Assembly (NCBI GenBank): GCA_027310565.1
Contig: DAIDAP010000023.1
Coordinates: 62,001-126,000 of the forward strand
Source of the DNA: Chloroflexota bacterium
GTDB lineage: Bacteria > Chloroflexota > Limnocylindria > P2-11E
DNA length: 64,000 nt
Reading direction: 5' to 3'
Part shown: in pieces, positions 17,195 through 54,710 of the stretch
Position numbering within the stretch: the stretch's first letter is position 1
Layout of the letters: each line of letters starts with the position of its first letter
Made by a program: the position numbers and the translations under genes
Notes under the pieces: model-generated
Told to the model about the DNA's origin: nothing
The model's input: only the letters and a program-made list of their open reading frames with translations
The model's database searches: none

Positions 17195-18055
17195 TCAGCT
17201 CGCCGGCACCATCCCGAGCTTCGCGTAGACCTCGCGCGTCGCGCGCGAGAAGTTCAGCGTGTAGAAGTGCAGGCCGGGCACGCCGTGCTCGAGGAGCGCG
17301 GCGCAGAGCTCGGCCGCGAGCTCGATGCCGCGCTCGCGGATCGCGTCGTGGCCCTCGCCGCCCGCGGTGACGCGCGCCACGACCGCGTCGGGCACCCGGT
17401 ACCCCGAGAGCTCAGCCATGCGCTGCACCGACGCGAGCGAGGTGATCGGCATGATGCCCGCGAGGATCGGCTTCCGGACGCCCCGCTCCGCGACGTCGTC
17501 GCGGAGGCGCAGGTACTCGTCGAGCTCGAAGAAGAACTGCGTGATCGCGAAGTCGGCGAGCTCGAGCTTCGCCGCGAGGTACCTGCGGTCGGAGGCGAGG
17601 TCGGGCGAGCGGGGGTGGCCGGCCGGGTGCGCGGCGACGCCGATGGAGGGAAAGCCGAGCCGCCTGCCGAGCCGCACGAGCTCGGACGCGTAGGCGAGCT
17701 CGTGCTTCGACTGGCCCTCGGGCAGCGGATCGCCGCCGAGCGCGAGGAGGTTCTCGCAGCCGAGCGCGCGGAAGCCGCCCATGATCTCGCCGAGCTCGAA
17801 GCGCGTGTGCGCGACGCAGGTGAGGTGGGCCATCGGCACCAGGCTCGTCGTGCGCAGGAGGTCCTCGACGACGGCGGTGGTGCGGTGCCGCGATGCCGCG
17901 CCTCCGCGGTACGTGACCGAGACGAACGACGGACGCAGCGGCGCGAGGTCGCGGATGGCCTGGGTCAGCAGGCGCTGCTCGCGGTCGTCCCGGGGCGGGA
18001 AGAACTCGAACGAGAACGTCGTGCCCGCCGCGAGCATCTCGGTGATGCGCTTCAT
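17195..18055 (-). CDS. metF: Methylenetetrahydrofolate reductase MetF
   Basis: 286 residues, a FAD-binding TIM barrel. [12 protein letters not shown] is the N-terminal signature, VSVTYRGGA and [11 protein letters not shown] follow, and [11 protein letters not shown] holds the Asp near FAD. Reduces 5,10-methylene-THF to 5-methyl-THF for methionine synthesis. A TAGACT hexamer ends 6 bp before the ATG with no ribosome binding site between, so the transcript is probably leaderless. It follows leuB on the same strand. Confidence 0.93.
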
Positions 18056-19285: not shown

Positions 19286-19378
19286 ATGAAGCGTTGCTGG
19301 TGCCCGATGGCCATGCGTGAGACCCGCCGCGCCTGCGTCTGTGCGGCGGGTCCCACGGTCTCGGGAGGCGGCGTGTAG
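19286..19378 (+). CDS. Cys/Met-rich attenuator leader peptide
   Basis: A 30-codon reading frame that starts MKRCWCPMAM and contains Cys at 4, 6, 17 and 19 and Met at 1, 8 and 10, an extreme bias in a genome where these are rare. A perfect 10 bp hairpin (19321-19330 with 19343-19352) carries the second Cys pair in its loop. GGGAGGC at 19363-19369, just before the stop codon, can pair with the 5' arm of the terminator at 19406. A ribosome paused at the early Cys codons would leave it free (antitermination); one reaching the stop would cover it. Confidence 0.7.
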   Translation: MKRCWCPMAMRETRRACVCAAGPTVSGGGV

Positions 19379-19405
19379 CCGGCTAGCTCGTTCGGCGATC
19401 TCAAG

Positions 19406-19433
19406 AGGCCTCCCGGAATCCGGGAGGCCTTTT
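19406..19433 (+). terminator. Attenuator terminator (Cys leader)
   Basis: Perfect 11 bp stem, AGGCCTCCCGG with its complement, 3 nt loop AAT, followed by TTTTCGTTCG. The 5' arm contains GCCTCCC, complementary to GGGAGGC inside the leader frame. It lies between leader and regulator gene. Confidence 0.85.
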
Positions 19434-19455
19434 CGTTCGTATCGGAGGTGTGGCG

Positions 19456-20112
19456 ATGTCCGAGATACGGTACCTGGCGGTGGCGTTCGCGAGCCGCGGC
19501 GCCAACGGGCACCTGCGCCCGGCGGTCGCGGCCGCGGCGCCCGCGGACGCGAAGGTCGTGCGGACCCGGTCCGACGTCGTCGCCGCGGTGTTCGAGGTGG
19601 ACGAGGATGTCGACGCGCGCGGTGAGGGGGAGCGGCTGCGGCGGACGGTGGCCGAGCGGGCCGAGGACCCCGAGCTCACCGTCGCCGTGTCGGGGCCGAA
19701 GCGCGGCAGCACCGGGGCGCACCTCGCGCTGCTGCAGGCCGAGCAGGCCGCCGTGCTGGGGAGCCGCAACGGCGGACGCGGCCGGACGACGCACTTCGAC
19801 GACCTCGGCGCGTACCGCTTCGTGCTCGGCCAGCCCGAGAGCGACATCGAGGCCTCCGCGGACCGCGCGCTCGGCGCGCTCGCCGAGGACGAGGAGCGCT
19901 ACGCGGACCTCCTCACGACGCTCGATTCGTTCATCCGCCTGCACGGGAGCGTGAACGCGGTCGCGCGCGACCTGTACCTGCACCGGAACACGGTGCGCCA
20001 GCGGCTGCGGCGGATCGCGCAGCTCACCGGCGCGGACCTCGCCGACGCGAACGACCGCCTCGCGCTGCAGCTCGCGCTCATCGGCCGGGAGGCGCTGCGG
20101 CACCTCGCGTAG
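19456..20112 (+). CDS. Short PucR/CdaR-type transcription regulator (paralogue 1)
   Basis: 218 residues. The C-terminal half matches the PucR-type helix-turn-helix (VNAVARDLYLHRNTVRQRLR, then IAQLTGADL); the middle resembles the degenerate GGDEF-like segment of CdaR/PucR proteins (ALLQAEQAAVLGSR and TTHFDDLGAYRFVL). No separate sensor domain precedes it, unlike full-length PucR. ATG at 19456 is chosen: GGAGG has 7 nt spacing to it, but only 1 nt to the in-frame GTG at 19450. Expression is controlled by the Cys-rich leader attenuator. A clear paralogue lies at 45671. The targets are unknown; sulfur or cysteine genes are a guess from the leader. Confidence 0.8.
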   Translation: MSEIRYLAVAFASRGANGHLRPAVAAAAPADAKVVRTRSDVVAAVFEVDEDVDARGEGERLRRTVAERAEDPELTVAVSGPKRGSTGAHLALLQAEQAAVLGSRNGGRGRTTHFDDLGAYRFVLGQPESDIEASADRALGALAEDEERYADLLTTLDSFIRLHGSVNAVARDLYLHRNTVRQRLRRIAQLTGADLADANDRLALQLALIGREALRHLA

Positions 20113-43357: not shown

Positions 43358-43708
43358 GTGATCGTGTGCGTGCCCGTCGCGCCGGACGGCAGCATCGACC
43401 CGCGCTGGGGCCGCGCCGCGCGCGTCGCGGTCGCGCGGCTCGGCCCCAGCGGCGTCGAGCGCTGGGACGAGCTCGACGTCGGCTGGGACCGGCTCCACGA
43501 CGCCGGGCCCGAGGGTCAGCACCACGCGCGGGTCGCCGCGTTCCTGCGCGAGCATGGCGTGCAGCTCGTGCTCGCCGGCCACATGGGGCCCGGCATGGCG
43601 CGGATGCTGCCGAGGATGGGCATCGCGGTGCGTCTTGGGGCGTCCGGGAGCGCGCGCGAGGCGGTGGCCGCGGCCGGAGCGCTTGTGCACCGTGCCCCAG
43701 GCCGTTGA
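43358..43708 (+). CDS. NifX/NafY-like cluster-binding domain protein
   Basis: 116 residues. IVCVPVAPDGSIDPRWGRA is the start of the dinitrogenase iron-molybdenum cofactor (NifX/COG1433) fold; VQLVLAGHMGPGMARMLPRM is its conserved second half. Such stand-alone proteins occur in organisms without nitrogenase and may bind metal clusters. A TAGATT hexamer ends 7 bp before the GTG, suggesting a leaderless message. Its stop codon overlaps the -35 of the Met-leader promoter. Confidence 0.75.
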   Translation: MIVCVPVAPDGSIDPRWGRAARVAVARLGPSGVERWDELDVGWDRLHDAGPEGQHHARVAAFLREHGVQLVLAGHMGPGMARMLPRMGIAVRLGASGSAREAVAAAGALVHRAPGR

Positions 43709-43734
43709 CCGTTCCGGGTCGCGGGCCGTACGGT
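43705..43734 (+). promoter_or_regulatory. Promoter of the Met-leader attenuator
   Basis: TTGACC, 18 bp, TACGGT. The -10 ends 9 bp before the leader ATG. The TGA stop of the NifX-like gene (43706-43708) lies inside the -35. Confidence 0.65.
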
Positions 43735-43743
43735 CGCCGCCTC

Positions 43744-43827
43744 ATGACGCATCGGGCGATGTCCATGTCCATGGCGATGGCCTCGGGTGGCGAGGCCTTC
43801 GTGGCGTTGGACGTGACCCGGGCGTAG
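43744..43827 (+). CDS. Met-rich attenuator leader peptide
   Basis: 27-codon frame starting MTHRAMSMSMAMAS; five Met in the first 12 residues. A perfect 7 bp hairpin GGCCTCG/CGAGGCC (43779-43785 with 43791-43797) follows the Met codons. CCCGGGC at 43817-43823, next to the stop codon, can pair with the CCCGG of the terminator 5' arm. Ribosome stalling at Met codons would free it and prevent termination. The reading frame, its bias and its position directly before a terminator argue for a methionine attenuator. Confidence 0.75.
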   Translation: MTHRAMSMSMAMASGGEAFVALDVTRA

Positions 43828-43848
43828 ACCCGACCGCGGCAGCACACG

Positions 43849-43880
43849 AAGGCCCCCGGAGCACCGGGGGCTTTTTCTTT
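43849..43880 (+). terminator. Attenuator terminator (Met leader)
   Basis: 8 bp GC-only stem GCCCCCGG with CCGGGGGC, AGCA loop, extended by GU/AU pairs, followed by TTTTTCTTTT. Lies just before the ribosome binding site of the PLP-enzyme gene. Confidence 0.88.
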
Positions 43881-43891
43881 TGGAGGGCGAG

Positions 43892-45136
43892 ATGGCGACG
43901 ACGACGATCACCCGGAGTGCGCTCCGCGGACTGCGCTGCCGCGCGTGCGGCGCGCTCGGGCCGGCCGACGAGCGCTACGTCTGCGGCGAGTGCCTCGGCC
44001 CGATCGAGCCCGAGTACGACCTCGCGTCGTTCGAGCCGGGTGCGCTGCGCCGGGACATCGAGCGCGGGCCGCGCTCGCTGTGGCGCTACGCGCCGCTCCT
44101 TCCGGTGCGGGAGCCGGGTCTCCGCCACGCCGTCGGCTGGACGCCGCTCCTCCCGGCGCCCCGGCTCGGCGCGGCCCTCCGCGTCGAGCGTCTGTACCTG
44201 AAGGACGACACGCGCAATCCGACGCTCTCGTTCAAGGACCGGCCGGTGGCGATCGCGCTCGCGCGCGCCCTCGCGCTCGGCCTCGACACGCTCGCGTGCG
44301 CCTCGACCGGGAACCTCGCCGGCGCTGTCGCGTCGGCCGCGGCCCGCGCGGGCCTGCGGGCGTTCGTGTTCGTGCCCGAGGCGACCGAGGCGGGGAAGAC
44401 CGCGAGCGCCGCAGCGTACGGCGCGACCGTCGTCCGCGTGCGCGGCACGTACGACCAGGTGAACCGGCTCTGCGGCCGGCTCGCGGACGAGCGCGGCTGG
44501 GGCTTCGTGAACTTCACGCTGCGCCCGTACTACGCGGAGGGCTCGAAGACGCTGCTGTTCGAGTGCGCGGAGCAGCTCGGCTGGGAGCTGCCGCACCACG
44601 TCGTCGTGCCGGTCGGGTCGGGGGCGCTCCTCACGCGCACCGCGACCGCCGTCGCGCAGCTCCGCGCGACGCGCCTGGCCGGCGGCGAGCACTGCCACAT
44701 CCACGCCGCGCAGCCCGCGGGCTGCGCGCCGGTGTCCGACGCCGTCCTCGACGGATGGCGGTCCGTCGCTCCGGTCCGCGCGCCGGCGACGCTCGCACGG
44801 TCGCTCGCCATCGGCGCGCCCGCCGACGGCGACGGCTCGGTCGCCGCGATCCGCGAGTCGCGCGGCAGCGCGGCGTCGGTGGACGACGACGCGATCCGCG
44901 ACGCCGTCCGGCTGCTCGCGGCGACCGAGGGCGTGCTCGTCGAGCCGGCGGGCGGCGTCGTCATAGCGGCGGCGCGCGAGCTGGCATCGCGCGGCGTGTT
45001 CCACACCGGCGAGACCGTCGTGCTCTACCTGACCGGCAACGGGTACAAAGGGGGCCCCGAGGAGATCCCGCTGCGCCCGGTCATCGACGCCGACGCCGAC
45101 GCCTTCGCCGAGGCGTACGGGGAGGTGGCCCCATGA
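43892..45136 (+). CDS. Threonine-synthase-like PLP enzyme
   Basis: 414 residues, fold-type II PLP enzyme. The N-terminal zinc ribbon (CRACG, CGEC; Cys16, 19, 31, 34) and the PLP lysine 115 in NPTLSFKDRPVAIA resemble ThrC; STGNLAGAV binds phosphate. ATG 43892 follows GGAGGG. It overlaps the sulfur-carrier gene as ATGA, and the operon is under a Met-rich leader. A plain threonine synthase would be expected under Thr/Ile control. I infer a sulfhydrylase making homocysteine from a (phospho)homoserine-type substrate with the carrier thiocarboxylate, by analogy with CysM-CysO. Threonine synthase remains the fallback. Confidence 0.8.
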   Translation: MATTTITRSALRGLRCRACGALGPADERYVCGECLGPIEPEYDLASFEPGALRRDIERGPRSLWRYAPLLPVREPGLRHAVGWTPLLPAPRLGAALRVERLYLKDDTRNPTLSFKDRPVAIALARALALGLDTLACASTGNLAGAVASAAARAGLRAFVFVPEATEAGKTASAAAYGATVVRVRGTYDQVNRLCGRLADERGWGFVNFTLRPYYAEGSKTLLFECAEQLGWELPHHVVVPVGSGALLTRTATAVAQLRATRLAGGEHCHIHAAQPAGCAPVSDAVLDGWRSVAPVRAPATLARSLAIGAPADGDGSVAAIRESRGSAASVDDDAIRDAVRLLAATEGVLVEPAGGVVIAAARELASRGVFHTGETVVLYLTGNGYKGGPEEIPLRPVIDADADAFAEAYGEVAP

Positions 45137-45399
45137 CCGTCCTGCGGCTGCCCTCGCCGCTGCGCTCGGCGGTCGGCGGGCGGACGACGGTGGAGATCGA
45201 GGCGAGCGACCTCGCCTCGCTGCCCGCGGCCGTCGCCGCGCGCTACCCGGACCTCGCCGCCCGCGTGCTGCGCGACGGGGCGTTCGGGCGGTTCGTGACC
45301 GTCTTCGTCGACGGCGAGGACGCGCGCTTCCTCGCCGCGGACACGCCGCTCGGATCGGCGCGCGTCGTCGAGCTGCTGCCCGCGATGAGCGGCGGCTGA
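45133..45399 (+). CDS. ThiS/MoaD-family sulfur carrier protein
   Basis: 88 residues with a ubiquitin-like beta-grasp pattern: VLRLPSPLRSAVGG, TVEIEASDLASLPAAVAARY, then FVTVFVDGEDARFL and the C-terminal tail LLPAMSGG. The terminal di-glycine is where an E1-like enzyme would adenylate and thiocarboxylate the protein. The start overlaps the PLP-enzyme stop (ATGA), implying equal translation of the two. No E1-like or JAMM protease gene is visible in this window. Confidence 0.88.
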   Translation: MTVLRLPSPLRSAVGGRTTVEIEASDLASLPAAVAARYPDLAARVLRDGAFGRFVTVFVDGEDARFLAADTPLGSARVVELLPAMSGG

Positions 45400-45518: not shown

Positions 45519-45596
45519 GTGGCTCAGCCGATCGTCATCGTCGTCCCGGTCCTCGTCCTTGCGACGAGCCAGACGGCGTTGGGAGGCGGCAGCTAG
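45519..45596 (+). CDS. Val/Ile/Leu-rich attenuator leader peptide (regulator gene)
   Basis: 25 codons from GTG: VAQPIVIVVPVLVLATS and then QTALGGGS. Nine of residues 5-14 are Ile, Val or Leu. A hairpin CTCGTC/GACGAG (45552-45557 with 45563-45568) follows. GGGAGGC at 45581-45587, just before the stop, can pair with the terminator 5' arm at 45625. Confidence 0.72.
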   Translation: MAQPIVIVVPVLVLATSQTALGGGS

Positions 45597-45650: not shown

Positions 45651-45670
45651 CTTCGTTGTGGAGGACGGCG

Positions 45671-46330
45671 ACGAGCGAGCGGCGGTACATCGCGATCGCG
45701 TTCGCGGGCGGCAGGCGAGCCGCCGGCGCCGCCCTGCGCGACGCCCTCCAGGCCGAGACGGAGGATGGCACGCGCGTGCTGCGCACCGCGGCGGCGGTGA
45801 CCGCGCTGGCCGAGGTGGGCGAGGGCGTGGAGGCTCGGGCGCACGCCGAGCGGCTTCGCGAGCGCCTCGCGGCCACGCTCCGCGACGGCGCGCTCTCGGC
45901 CGGCGTCGCCGGGCCCAAGCCGGGCGCCTCCGGCGCGCACTACGCGCTCGTGCAGGCCGAGCACGCGCTCGTCATCGGGCGCGCCCTGCACGGCGACGGG
46001 CGCACGACGCACTTCGACGAGCTCGGCCCTTACTGCTTCGTCCTCACGCAGCCGGCGACCGACGTGCGCGCGTTCGCGGAGCGCGTCCTCGGACCGCTCA
46101 TCGAGGACGACCGCCACAGCGAGCTCGTCGACACGCTCGAGGTCTACCTGCGCACCCAGGGGAACCTCAACGAGGTGGCCCGGCGGATCTTCCTGCACCG
46201 CAACACCGTCCGTCACCGGCTGAAGCGCATCGCGAAGCTGACCGGCGCCGACCTCGACGATCCGGACATGCGGCTCGCGTTCCAGCTCGCGATCCTCGGC
46301 CGGCGCGCGCTGAGCCGGATGACTTCGTGA
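45671..46330 (+). CDS. Short PucR/CdaR-type transcription regulator (paralogue 2)
   Basis: 219 residues if started at ACG 45671. Paralogue of the protein at 19456: HYALVQAEHALVIGRAL and TTHFDELGPYCFVLTQ align with it, and the helix-turn-helix is VARRIFLHRNTVRHRLK. No ATG or GTG occurs in frame; ACG sits exactly where paralogue 1 has ATG, with GGAGG 6 nt upstream. The in-frame TTG at 45656 is the alternative. It lies under a Val/Ile/Leu-rich attenuator and directly upstream of the attenuated ilv operon, so it probably controls branched-chain genes. Confidence 0.78.
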   Translation, partial: TSERRYIAIAFAGGRRAAGAALRDALQAETEDGTRVLRTAAAVTALAEVGEGVEARAHAERLRERLAATLRDGALSAGVAGPKPGASGAHYALVQAEHALVIGRALHGDGRTTHFDELGPYCFVLTQPATDVRAFAERVLGPLIEDDRHSELVDTLEVYLRTQGNLNEVARRIFLHRNTVRHRLKRIAKLTGADLDDPDMRLAFQLAILGRRALSRMTS

Positions 46331-46398: not shown

Positions 46399-46470
46399 AT
46401 GGGCCGCCTCGTCCTCGTCCTTATCGGGATCGTCCTCGTCGAGAGGGCGTACGTCCGTTCGGGAGGGTAG
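46399..46470 (+). CDS. Leu/Val/Ile-rich attenuator leader peptide (ilv operon)
   Basis: 23 codons, MGRLVLVLIGIVLVERAY and then VRSGG: nine Leu/Val/Ile among residues 4-14, next to ilv genes, the classic ilv leader pattern. CGGGAGG at 46460-46466, before the stop, is complementary to the terminator 5' arm at 46505. Confidence 0.85.
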   Translation: MGRLVLVLIGIVLVERAYVRSGG

Positions 46471-46504
46471 CGGCTCACACCACGCACCACACGGCAGCAC
46501 AGAG

Positions 46505-46529
46505 AAGGCCTCCCGAACCGGGAGGCCTT
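46505..46529 (+). terminator. Attenuator terminator (ilv operon)
   Basis: Perfect 11 bp stem AAGGCCTCCCG, loop AAC, followed by CTTCGTTCT. Located 50 bp before the ilvB-like start. Confidence 0.82.
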
Positions 46530-46578
46530 CTTCGTTCTCACGGACAGGCCGAGACGAGCGCGAGAAAAGGAGACGGCG

Positions 46579-48357
46579 ATGGCGATCAGACTCGAACGCG
46601 AGCCCCGCGAGCGCCAGGCCACGTGGGCCGAGAGCGGGAACTCCGTCGTCGTCGACATCCTGCGCTCCTGGGGCGTGACGTTCTTCGCCGGCGTGAACGG
46701 CGGCGGGGTCGTGCACGTCGCAAAGAGCTTCGAGCCGTTCGACGACCCGGCGCAGGCGCACGACGGCGTGTCGCGGCTGCTCACGATGAGCGAGTACGTC
46801 GCGGGCTTCGCGCCGCTCGGCTACTGGCTCGCTTCCGGGCGCGTCGCGGGCTGCCTCACCACGACCGGCGCCGCGACGAAGCTCGGCGCGAGCGGGCTGT
46901 CGGACGCGAAGCTGCACAACATCCCGGCGGTCTACCTGGTGGCCCTCAACTCCACGCTGTCGATCGGGAACGGGCCGCTCCAGGACGTGTCGGAGCACGG
47001 CATGAACATCGTCCCCCAGCTCGAGGCCGAGCTCGGCGAGGGGTGCGTCGTCATCGACAACATCAACCGCCTCGAGGACGGAATGCGGCGCGCGCAGCAC
47101 ATGCTGAAGCGCAGCAAGCCCGTCGCCATCGCGTTCCACCCCGACGTGCTGTCGCGTCCGACCGACGCCGCGGCGCCGTGGACCTCCAACCCGGCCACGT
47201 TCGCCGCGCGCGACGTCGCCGAGTTCCTGGAGGAGTTCCCGCGGGTCTCGCGCGGCAGGCGCGTCGTCATCTACGTCTCCGGCGAGGCCGCCTTCGTCCC
47301 CGGCATCCGAGAAGCGACGACCCACCTCTCTCATCTCCTGCGCGCTCCCACGGTGTGGTCGGTGAACGGAGCCAACGCCGTCTCGCCGACCAACCCGTGG
47401 GGGTACGGCTACATCTCGTTCGGCGGCAACGACGCCGCGATGGAGCTGTGGCGCGGGCTCACCGCGGACGACGTGGTCGTCACGCTCGGCTTCGATCCCG
47501 GTGAGTACTCGCTCAACCTGGGGCGCATCCCGGCCGGCTGGGTGTACCACTTCACCGACCTGCGCGACCCGTACGGGCACAAGCACGGCGAGTTCCGTCA
47601 CCGTGCCGCGCACGAGTACCGCATGGTCCGCGGCGACATCGGGATGGTGCTGCGCGAGATCCTCCCGCGCCTCGAGCGCACCGTCGGCGAGCGGCCGCAC
47701 ACGCCGATGGCGCCGCGCGACCTCAACACGCGCGAGATCTCGCGCGACACGCGGCCGGGCACCGTCGACGCCGTGGAGTTCTACGGCCGCCTCCACCGGA
47801 TGTGGCGGCCGGGGTCGATCGGGTTCGACGACGTCTGCACCGCCTACAAGGACCGGCAGTACGTCGCGCAGCGGCCGAGCGAGGCGATCCGGTTCTTCAC
47901 GACGCACGACGGCTCGGCGATGGGCGGCGGCTTCGGCCTCGGTGTCGGCGCGAAGTGCGCCGAGCCCGACCTGCACACGTTCGTCTTCACCGGCGACGGG
48001 TGCTGGCGGCTCTTCGGCGGAGCGCTCGCCGACGCCGCGAACCTCGGTCTCAACGTCTTCGTCGTGAACAACGGCGTGCTCGGCATCGTCGACAAGGGCC
48101 TCGAGGTGATCATCCCCGACGTCGAGAAGCGCAGGTACCACAGCCGGCTGCCGCGGATCGACTTCACCAGGGCCGCCGAGGCGCACGGCTGGGAGGCTGC
48201 CCGCGTGGCCCCCGACCTCTCCGACCTCGGCGACATCGTCGACGCGTGCTACGAGCGGCGCGGCCGCTCGCTCCTGGTGGAGGTCCCGGTCGACCCGGAC
48301 CAGCTCATCGGGCTCAATCCGCGGCTTGCCAACCTGACGACGAAGACCTACCTCTAA
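46579..48357 (+). CDS. ilvB: Divergent acetolactate-synthase-like ThDP enzyme
   Basis: 592 residues. ThDP-binding motif VFTGDGCWRLFGGALADAAN with FVVNN; the N-terminal catalytic-Glu region reads LLTMSEYVAGFAPLGYWLAS instead of the usual RHEQ-containing form. The overall match to IlvB is weak: no recognisable FAD-type central domain and no ilvN next to it. Context (ILV leader, then ilvC, leuA, ilvD) makes acetolactate synthase the best call; other ThDP decarboxylases or ligases are possible. AAAAGGAG precedes the ATG. Confidence 0.7.
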   Translation: MAIRLEREPRERQATWAESGNSVVVDILRSWGVTFFAGVNGGGVVHVAKSFEPFDDPAQAHDGVSRLLTMSEYVAGFAPLGYWLASGRVAGCLTTTGAATKLGASGLSDAKLHNIPAVYLVALNSTLSIGNGPLQDVSEHGMNIVPQLEAELGEGCVVIDNINRLEDGMRRAQHMLKRSKPVAIAFHPDVLSRPTDAAAPWTSNPATFAARDVAEFLEEFPRVSRGRRVVIYVSGEAAFVPGIREATTHLSHLLRAPTVWSVNGANAVSPTNPWGYGYISFGGNDAAMELWRGLTADDVVVTLGFDPGEYSLNLGRIPAGWVYHFTDLRDPYGHKHGEFRHRAAHEYRMVRGDIGMVLREILPRLERTVGERPHTPMAPRDLNTREISRDTRPGTVDAVEFYGRLHRMWRPGSIGFDDVCTAYKDRQYVAQRPSEAIRFFTTHDGSAMGGGFGLGVGAKCAEPDLHTFVFTGDGCWRLFGGALADAANLGLNVFVVNNGVLGIVDKGLEVIIPDVEKRRYHSRLPRIDFTRAAEAHGWEAARVAPDLSDLGDIVDACYERRGRSLLVEVPVDPDQLIGLNPRLANLTTKTYL

Positions 48358-53338: not shown

Positions 53339-53419
53339 ATGACCTTCGGCCTCCCGCTCCCGATCCTCATCCCGGCCCCGCTCGAGGGGGCCCGAGCGAG
53401 CGCGGGAGGCGCGACCTAG
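53339..53419 (+). CDS. Leu/Ile/Pro-rich attenuator leader peptide
   Basis: 26 codons starting MTFGLPLPILIPAPLEG, then ARASAGGAT; Leu/Ile occupy six of residues 5-15, with four Pro. Hairpin CGCTCG/CGAGCG (53379-53384 with 53393-53398) follows. GGGAGGC at 53404-53410, near the stop, can pair with the terminator 5' arm at 53448. Confidence 0.75.
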   Translation: MTFGLPLPILIPAPLEGARASAGGAT

Positions 53420-53501: not shown

Positions 53502-54710
53502 GTGGCGATCAGGGAAGTGGTGGCGGGCAGGCCGCCGCTCAACGACGTCTTCGGATCGTTCATCGACGAGACCATCGGCATCGTCGCGCGGCAGACCCGC
53601 GACACGGTCTCGTTCGCGGTCGGCTCGCCCGCGCGCGAGGCGCTCGACCTCGTCGGCGCCGACGACCTCGCCGCGACCGTCATCCGCCGCGAGGGAGCCA
53701 GCGCGCTCGGATACACGATCACCGAGGGCGATCCGGAGCTGCGCGCCGCCGTCGCCGAGCAGGCGCGGCGCCGCGGCGTGCGCGCCGACCCGGATGACGT
53801 GCTGGTCAGCGCGGGCGCGCTCCAGGGCATCGACCTCCTCTGCCGCGTCTACCTGCGACGGGGCGACGTCGTCGTCGCGGAGTCGCCGGCGTTCGCGAAC
53901 GCGCTCTCGGCGTTCCGCAACAGCGGCGCGCGCGTGCTCGAGGTGCCGGTGGACGAGGAGGGGATGGACGTCGCGCAGGCGGCGCGGATGATCCGGCGGC
54001 ACGGTGTGCGGCCGCGCATGTTCTTCGTCGTTCCGAACTTCCAGAACCCCACGGGTGAGACGCTCTCGGAGCGCCGGCGCGAGGCGCTCCTCGCGCTCGC
54101 CGCGAGCTGCGGCGCGGTGATCGTCGAGGACGACCCGTACGGGCTGCTGCGCTACCGCGGCCGGGACCTCGCGCCGATCGCCTCGCTCGCGGTGCGCGCC
54201 GAGGTCGCGTCGGTCGGGTCGTTCTCCAAGACGTTCCTCCCCGGCCTGCGCGTCGGATGGGTCATCGCGTCGGGCGACGTCGTGCGGCGGATGGCCGCGG
54301 CGAAGCAGACGATGGATTCCTCCACCGGGACGCTCGCGCAGCGCATCGTGCTCGAGTTCCTCTCGCGGGGCGGGAACGACGCGCACGTCGAGCGGCTGCG
54401 GGGGCTGTACCGCGAGAAGCAGGACCGCGCGCGGGATGCGCTCGCGCGCGAGTTCGGCGGCACCGGCGTGACCTGGAACGATCCCGAGGGCGGCTTCTAC
54501 TTCTGGGTGCGGCTTCCGCGCGGCGTCGACGCGTCGCGGCTGCTCGAGGTGGCGCTCGAGGAGGGCGTCGCCTTCGTGCCGGGGCGCGCGTTCGCCATCG
54601 AGCGCGACCACGGCAGCGCGCTCCGCTTCTCGATCAGCGGGCCCGCGCCGGCGCGCATCGACGAGGGCGTGCGGCGGCTGCGGCGCGCCTTCGACCGGGT
54701 GGTGGCGTGA
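53502..54710 (+). CDS. PLP-dependent aminotransferase, class I (LysN/MocR-catalytic type)
   Basis: 402 residues, fold type I. VVPNFQNPTGETLSE, EDDPYGLLRY and GSFSKTFLPGLRVGW with PLP Lys243 match the 2-aminoadipate aminotransferase-like group, without a GntR DNA-binding part. Under a Leu/Ile attenuator and coupled (GTGA) to ilvA, it most likely is the branched-chain aminotransferase, taking the place of the usual fold-IV IlvE, for which no gene is seen here. GTG start with AAAGGAGG. Confidence 0.85.
   Translation: MAIREVVAGRPPLNDVFGSFIDETIGIVARQTRDTVSFAVGSPAREALDLVGADDLAATVIRREGASALGYTITEGDPELRAAVAEQARRRGVRADPDDVLVSAGALQGIDLLCRVYLRRGDVVVAESPAFANALSAFRNSGARVLEVPVDEEGMDVAQAARMIRRHGVRPRMFFVVPNFQNPTGETLSERRREALLALAASCGAVIVEDDPYGLLRYRGRDLAPIASLAVRAEVASVGSFSKTFLPGLRVGWVIASGDVVRRMAAAKQTMDSSTGTLAQRIVLEFLSRGGNDAHVERLRGLYREKQDRARDALAREFGGTGVTWNDPEGGFYFWVRLPRGVDASRLLEVALEEGVAFVPGRAFAIERDHGSALRFSISGPAPARIDEGVRRLRRAFDRVVA

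Follow-up and report, generated by a model that had tools for sequence, protein, structure and literature searches.

A probable MetM/MetO homocysteine synthase operon behind a methionine-codon leader in a Limnocylindria bacterium

We analyzed a 64,000-nucleotide stretch of Chloroflexota DNA (here called the window, meaning this whole stretch) and found an operon that very likely specifies a homocysteine synthase of the MetM type together with MetO, its sulfur carrier, under attenuation by methionine. A Met-codon leader attenuator, present at 13 loci of a single Limnocylindria family, appears to have taken the place of the SAM riboswitch otherwise found before this gene pair, and this swap seems to be new. 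The Met-codon leader occurs in the genus of the window and in a sister genus, and the SAM riboswitch occurs in less closely related members of this family and this order. The pathway itself is already known; the new elements are the regulatory swap and a set of carrier fusions. The operon and its leader region consist of the following features.

43705 to 43734, + strand: promoter-like TTGACC-N18-TACGGT, located by sequence inspection; in relatives, TTGACC...TAGCCT occupies this position
43744 to 43827, + strand: Met-rich leader peptide ORF of 27 codons, MTHRAMSMSMAMASGGEAFVALDVTRA, with equivalents in 12 related loci
43779 to 43797, + strand: hairpin 1:2 (GGCCTC...GAGGCC), directly 3' of the Met run, from sequence and fold; the arms are identical in locus L088
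43794 to 43803, + strand: antiterminator 5' arm, GGCCTTCGTG; 0 of 300 shuffles equal its duplex (z -3.2)
43845 to 43854, + strand: antiterminator 3' arm, CACGAAGGCC, which partly coincides with the terminator 5' arm and has a compensatory change in L088
43852 to 43881, + strand: intrinsic terminator with an 8-bp stem, a 4-nt loop, and a T run, from sequence and fold
43892 to 45136, + strand: metM, a ThrC-like PLP enzyme of 414 aa with a zinc-ribbon-like N-terminus and Lys115
45133 to 45399, + strand: metO, a ThiS-family sulfur carrier of 88 aa with C-terminal MSGG

Given the position of the promoter-like element, transcription probably starts so close to the leader ORF that the mRNA is nearly leaderless. 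Reading of the leader ORF places Met at positions 1, 6, 8, 10, and 12. The terminator hairpin, GCCCCCGG-AGCA-CCGGGGGC, spans 43852 to 43871 and is followed by TTTTTCTTTT; GGAGGG stands between the terminator and metM, and the metM stop and metO start share ATGA. An earlier note on this DNA had described this anatomy (the Met positions of the leader, the terminator, Lys115, an 88-residue carrier ending in GG, and the ATGA overlap), and it was right in every detail. Its proposal that a ThrC fold has been recruited to carrier-fed homocysteine synthesis is borne out, at the level of sequence comparison, by a clade of the enzyme's own, the SAM riboswitch of relatives, the replacement of MetX/MetY, and the operon at locus L043. 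The methionine attenuation that it proposed likewise gains support from the leader, terminator, and predicted antiterminator found in 13 loci.

MetM reportedly converts O-phosphohomoserine and thiocarboxylated MetO to homocysteine. In the mechanism that we propose, the single E1 that our searches of the genome found would charge MetO by adenylating and thiocarboxylating its GG end, and MetM would swap the phosphate of O-phosphohomoserine for carrier-bound sulfide to yield homocysteine, which would then be methylated to methionine. When Met-tRNA is scarce, ribosomes would stall on the Met run and open hairpin 1:2, whereupon the leader could pair with the terminator 5' arm and permit readthrough; when Met is ample, the terminator would form. 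We infer the MetM reaction, the charging of MetO, and the Met response of the operon from sequence.

The MetM family and the methionine routes of the order

The metM product matches Pfam PALP (E 6e-71) and has the PLP-lysine motif SFKDR, which includes Lys115. It scores 225 bits against an NCBIfam thrC cut-off of 167 and 45.7 bits on the CysM model, for which the cut-off is 413, and its predicted structure (pLDDT 82) has the ThrC fold and is closest to threonine synthases. We placed it in a tree of 38 proteins, comprising a 28-member clade, the two further ThrC-like proteins that this genome encodes, and eight distant relatives. The window enzyme and 27 others formed the clade (support 100/99), apart from ThrC and from both other ThrC-like proteins of the genome. 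Each of the 27 others has a carrier gene or a SAM riboswitch adjoining, and an adjacent carrier gene is present for 27 of the 28 clade enzymes, the 28th lying at a contig end; for the eight distant relatives, an adjacent carrier was sought in their loci and none was found. The motifs STGNLA and LRP(Y/F)YxEGSKT show few deviations within the clade and differ in the other proteins.

Gene neighborhoods point to the same function. Of 29 related loci, 28 have metO after metM, the exception (L045) stopping at a contig end, and an RF00162 SAM riboswitch lies directly upstream of metM in 14 loci from Actinomycetota and Chloroflexota. In the L043 operon, metM-metO is followed by a gene for a homocysteine methyltransferase/MTHFR protein, and one unannotated Nonomuraea record in a plasmid collection has riboswitch, metM, and carrier together. 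The pair in the window is very probably of the MetM/MetO type, judged on sequence, with the MetM of S. albulus entering the comparison through its published description.

The genome assembly that contains the window (2.79 Mb, 97.5% complete) has soil Chloroflexota as its nearest named relatives and was surveyed by family searches and by reading of a few stretches. A canonical thrC (L029; TIGR00260, 310 bits) is the neighbor of a gene whose GHMP-kinase motif marks it as thrB; metX and metY stand side by side (L025), both intact-looking; a CysM-CysO-JAMM set occupies another place; and one E1 was found, on contig C24, of the MoeB/MoeZ type, with a ThiF family assignment and a rhodanese domain. 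The earlier note had looked to a second, canonical thrC and to missing metX and metY genes: the separate thrC is indeed there, but so are metX and metY. A third ThrC-like gene (L024:5960-7174, - strand, contig C29), well over the NF006050 cut-off, has cystathionine beta-synthase-like and gamma-synthase/lyase-like genes as neighbors, and a metF-like methylenetetrahydrofolate reductase gene is present in the window at 17195 to 18055 (- strand), 26 kb upstream of the operon.

In a set of 29 genomes from the order, MetM occurs without MetX in 18 and MetX without MetM in 6, while 2 have both and 3 have neither (Fisher p 0.004, in a test that ignores ancestry and includes several incomplete genomes, among them the 3 with neither). 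MetM is found in 20 of the 29 (19 plus a contig-end fragment in genome G010) and MetX in 8; MetY accompanies MetX, and MetA was sought in the order genomes and not found. Canonical ThrC is present in 18 of the 20 MetM genomes, and two genera hold both MetM and MetX kinds of genome. The direction is clear: across the order, MetM replaces the acylhomoserine route and not threonine synthase. This replacement does not hold in the genome of the window, which is one of the two with both MetM and MetX.

If metX and metY already make homocysteine in this genome, metM-metO could be a redundant relic here, a reading that gains from the adjacent, intact-looking state of those two genes and from the rarity of genomes with both systems (2 of 29). 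We regard it as unlikely, since metM and metO are intact, the enzyme motifs and the GG end are retained, and the leader retains its Met run and terminator. It is more doubtful still that metM encodes a second threonine synthase feeding isoleucine synthesis (threonine to 2-oxobutyrate through IlvA), with the carrier serving otherwise. The score of MetM above the NCBI thrC cut-off and the placement of metM in one operon with ilvA, leuC, and leuD in sister genera would fit such an enzyme; however, a canonical thrC is present in the genome and the MetM clade stands apart from ThrC, the metM genes of relatives have a SAM riboswitch or Met codons before them, MetM replaces MetX/MetY rather than ThrC, and a carrier adjoins in 28 of 29 relatives.

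The leader region in the window and its relatives

Judged by comparison with relatives, the metM-metO leader is probably a ribosome-mediated attenuator. The window contains a cognate-codon leader ORF, an intrinsic terminator, and a predicted antiterminator that is mutually exclusive with it, and an Rfam search of the window returned no match, including no SAM riboswitch upstream of metM. With a local Met frequency of 1.8%, the chance of four internal Met in 26 codons is p = 0.001. In folding, the leader region surpasses 200 of 200 shuffles (z -3.1), and GGCCTTCGTG is perfectly complementary to CACGAAGGCC, forming a duplex that outdoes 300 of 300 shuffles (z -3.2). In L088, which belongs to the genus of the window, the duplex partners are GGCCTTTGTG and CACAAAGGCC, altered on both sides relative to the window. 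In the window, 21 nt separate the end of the antiterminator arm from the last base of the stop codon, a distance at which a ribosome halted at the stop might leave the arm uncovered.

Met-bearing leaders occupy the equivalent position in 12 related loci, which makes 13 with the window. The 11 loci beyond the window and L088 have a different but equivalent element, with a leader of 23 to 24 codons, a distance of 32 to 36 nt from leader stop to terminator, and a GGGAGGC that ends at the stop codon and pairs with GCCTCCC of the terminator. This pairing reaches the terminator loop; there, one U-A pair is C-G in some of the loci and is broken in three. Across the 13 loci, the antiterminator duplex is clearly above shuffles in only 6 and its core pairs hardly vary; shuffles gave no separation from chance in L086, L087, L090, L092, L093, L094, and L096.

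This lack of separation from shuffles in 7 of 13 loci, together with the fact that short ORFs with five Met are not in themselves rare (p 0.001), could be taken to mean that the Met run is accidental and that the hairpin merely terminates an upstream transcript. We give this reading very little credence, given that 13 loci of differing sequence all retain the leader, the terminator, and the alternative pairing, and that a scan of the window finds the layout solely before amino-acid or regulator genes.

Leader codons, operon content, and carrier fusions

That scan, for a leader with antiterminator and terminator, returned five elements. Three of the five leaders lie near branched-chain genes and contain IVIVVPVLVL, LVLVLIGIVLV, and LPLPILIPAPL, and the metM-metO leader reads Met. 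Three further features of the window belong here.

45519 to 45596, + strand: branched-chain leader MAQPIVIVVPVLVLATSQTALGGGS; a PucR-type HTH gene (45656 to 46330) follows
53339 to 53419, + strand: branched-chain leader MTFGLPLPILIPAPLEGARASAGGAT, before a free aminotransferase gene
53502 to 54710, + strand: the free aminotransferase, counterpart of the fusion partner of MetO in sister genera

At 46399 to 46579, a branched-chain leader, MGRLVLVLIGIVLVERAYVRSGG, and a terminator stand upstream of an acetolactate-synthase-like gene (46579 to 48357), the product of which is a divergent TPP enzyme that falls far under every family cut-off. At 19286 to 20112, the fifth element, a Cys/Met-rich leader, MKRCWCPMAMRETRRACVCAAGPTVSGGGV, with terminator and antiterminator, precedes a PucR-type HTH gene of 220 aa; this gene and the one at 45656 to 46330 are similar, both being small regulators under amino-acid attenuators.

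In relatives with metM-metO and aminotransferase-leuC-leuD (often with ilvA) as one operon, the leader mixes Leu/Ile/Val and Met codons, as in MRLVLIPPMPIAPMPGLSARPGG, although these mixed leaders have just 2 internal Met (p 0.057 each). In the genus of the window, these genes stand in separate operons, and each operon has a leader for one purpose. Leader codons track operon content, which supports a response of metM to methionine. At L097 to L099, all from one genus, metM-metO-aminotransferase lies directly behind ilvD, with neither a Met leader nor a SAM riboswitch between.

MetO belongs to the ThiS family (E 5e-9), and its nearest solved structures are CysO-type carriers. At 12 loci in 11 genomes of two sister genera, metO is fused in frame, past the GG, to the gene for a LysN-like aminotransferase of the branched-chain type, which makes the carrier an N-terminal domain (L033:6233-7705, L034, L036, L037, L038, and L040, and further L089 to L095, L097 to L099, L104, and L152, where several identifiers denote the same place). 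In the fusions, PAMSGG and the next Ala are invariant and the linker is variable. Other loci have short tails past the GG, consisting of AG, A, CC, YR, SR, or 12 residues, and in L096, which lacks the aminotransferase, GG is once more the end of the carrier. In L102 (genome G021), the carrier continues in frame past the GG into a different, membrane-bound-looking protein of ~240 residues. A structure model of the fusion had low confidence (pLDDT 60) and was not informative on the junction.

Neither MetX nor a full MetY was found in the genomes with MetO fusions, and the fused carrier therefore presumably needs proteolytic release. Of the 29 order genomes, 23 encode a JAMM protein, which adjoins CysO in the genome of the window. 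We tentatively suggest that in the sister genera a MetO-aminotransferase precursor may have to be cut after the GG, in the manner of a ubiquitin precursor, for MetO to be charged, possibly by JAMM, and that the mixed-codon attenuator may co-set branched-chain and methionine synthesis; we hold this with somewhat more doubt than belief.

Relation to known systems and meaning

In Wolinella, HcyS, HcyD, and MetY carry out carrier-fed homocysteine synthesis with an enzyme of the MetY fold. The proposed system of the window is likewise carrier-fed, and several relatives resemble Wolinella in having residues past the carrier GG; the enzyme has the ThrC fold, in contrast to the MetY fold in Wolinella. 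Canonical ThrC and MetM have in common the fold, the PLP lysine, and most probably the substrate, O-phosphohomoserine, whereas MetM has its own clade, other active-site motifs, and an adjacent carrier, in a genome that also has a canonical thrC. Mycobacterial CysM/CysO resembles the pair in that a PLP enzyme is supplied by a thiocarboxylated carrier, but MetM falls on the ThrC branch, not with CysM. Although MetO is closest in sequence to CysO-type carriers of known structure, it is extremely improbable that MetM and MetO form another cysteine synthase like CysM/CysO, given the separate CysM-CysO-JAMM set elsewhere in the genome, the far better fit of MetM to threonine synthases than to CysM, and regulation by SAM or Met. 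We rejected both a duplicate of CysM/CysO and an additional threonine synthase as candidates on profile scores, the presence of canonical ThrC, and the tree.

The closest known system is the Streptomyces one. Hasebe et al. 2024 (Appl Environ Microbiol 90:e01247-24), cited and discussed in PMC12172450, reported MetM and its carrier MetO from Streptomyces; in S. albulus, a SAM riboswitch precedes metM. Because that route was published in 2024 and the operon matches it, the pathway is not new, and the claim of the earlier note to a distinct methionine pathway is not supported. Of the two substrates that the earlier note had named, O-phosphohomoserine fits the published MetM/MetO and O-acetylhomoserine does not. 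The window and Streptomyces are alike in having a ThrC-like enzyme, a homocysteine synthase in Streptomyces and very probably in the window, followed by a carrier, and the window enzyme falls in one clade with SAM-riboswitch-controlled actinobacterial copies. They differ in the Met-codon leader attenuator of the window as against the riboswitch of S. albulus, in the carrier-aminotransferase fusion of sister genera, and in the presence of metX/metY in the genome of the window.

An RF00162 riboswitch also precedes SLIV_16930-16925 of S. lividans, annotated as "threonine biosynthesis" (PMC8079986). These genes are probably the same metM-metO pair. In S. lividans, metL is a Met leader of metNIQ without a clear terminator (PMC8079986). 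Like metL and the classical ilv/leu/trp attenuators, the window has a short cognate-codon leader ORF upstream of amino-acid genes; however, metL precedes a transporter, whereas in the window the Met leader, terminator, and antiterminator precede a biosynthetic operon. A literature search for a Met leader on a homocysteine synthase found no report, which is weak evidence of novelty.

For the same gene pair within one family, the sensor class appears to have been swapped, from a SAM riboswitch, which senses product, to a Met-codon leader, which senses charged tRNA. The findings extend the MetM/MetO pathway of 2024 to a lineage of soil Chloroflexota and add evidence of function from genomes, in that two methionine routes are largely mutually exclusive across one order, and the MetO-aminotransferase fusions turn carrier maturation into a testable question. 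Because MetM scores over the thrC cut-off, automatic annotation will misname it as threonine synthase, and genomes of this kind will consequently be reported as unable to make methionine.
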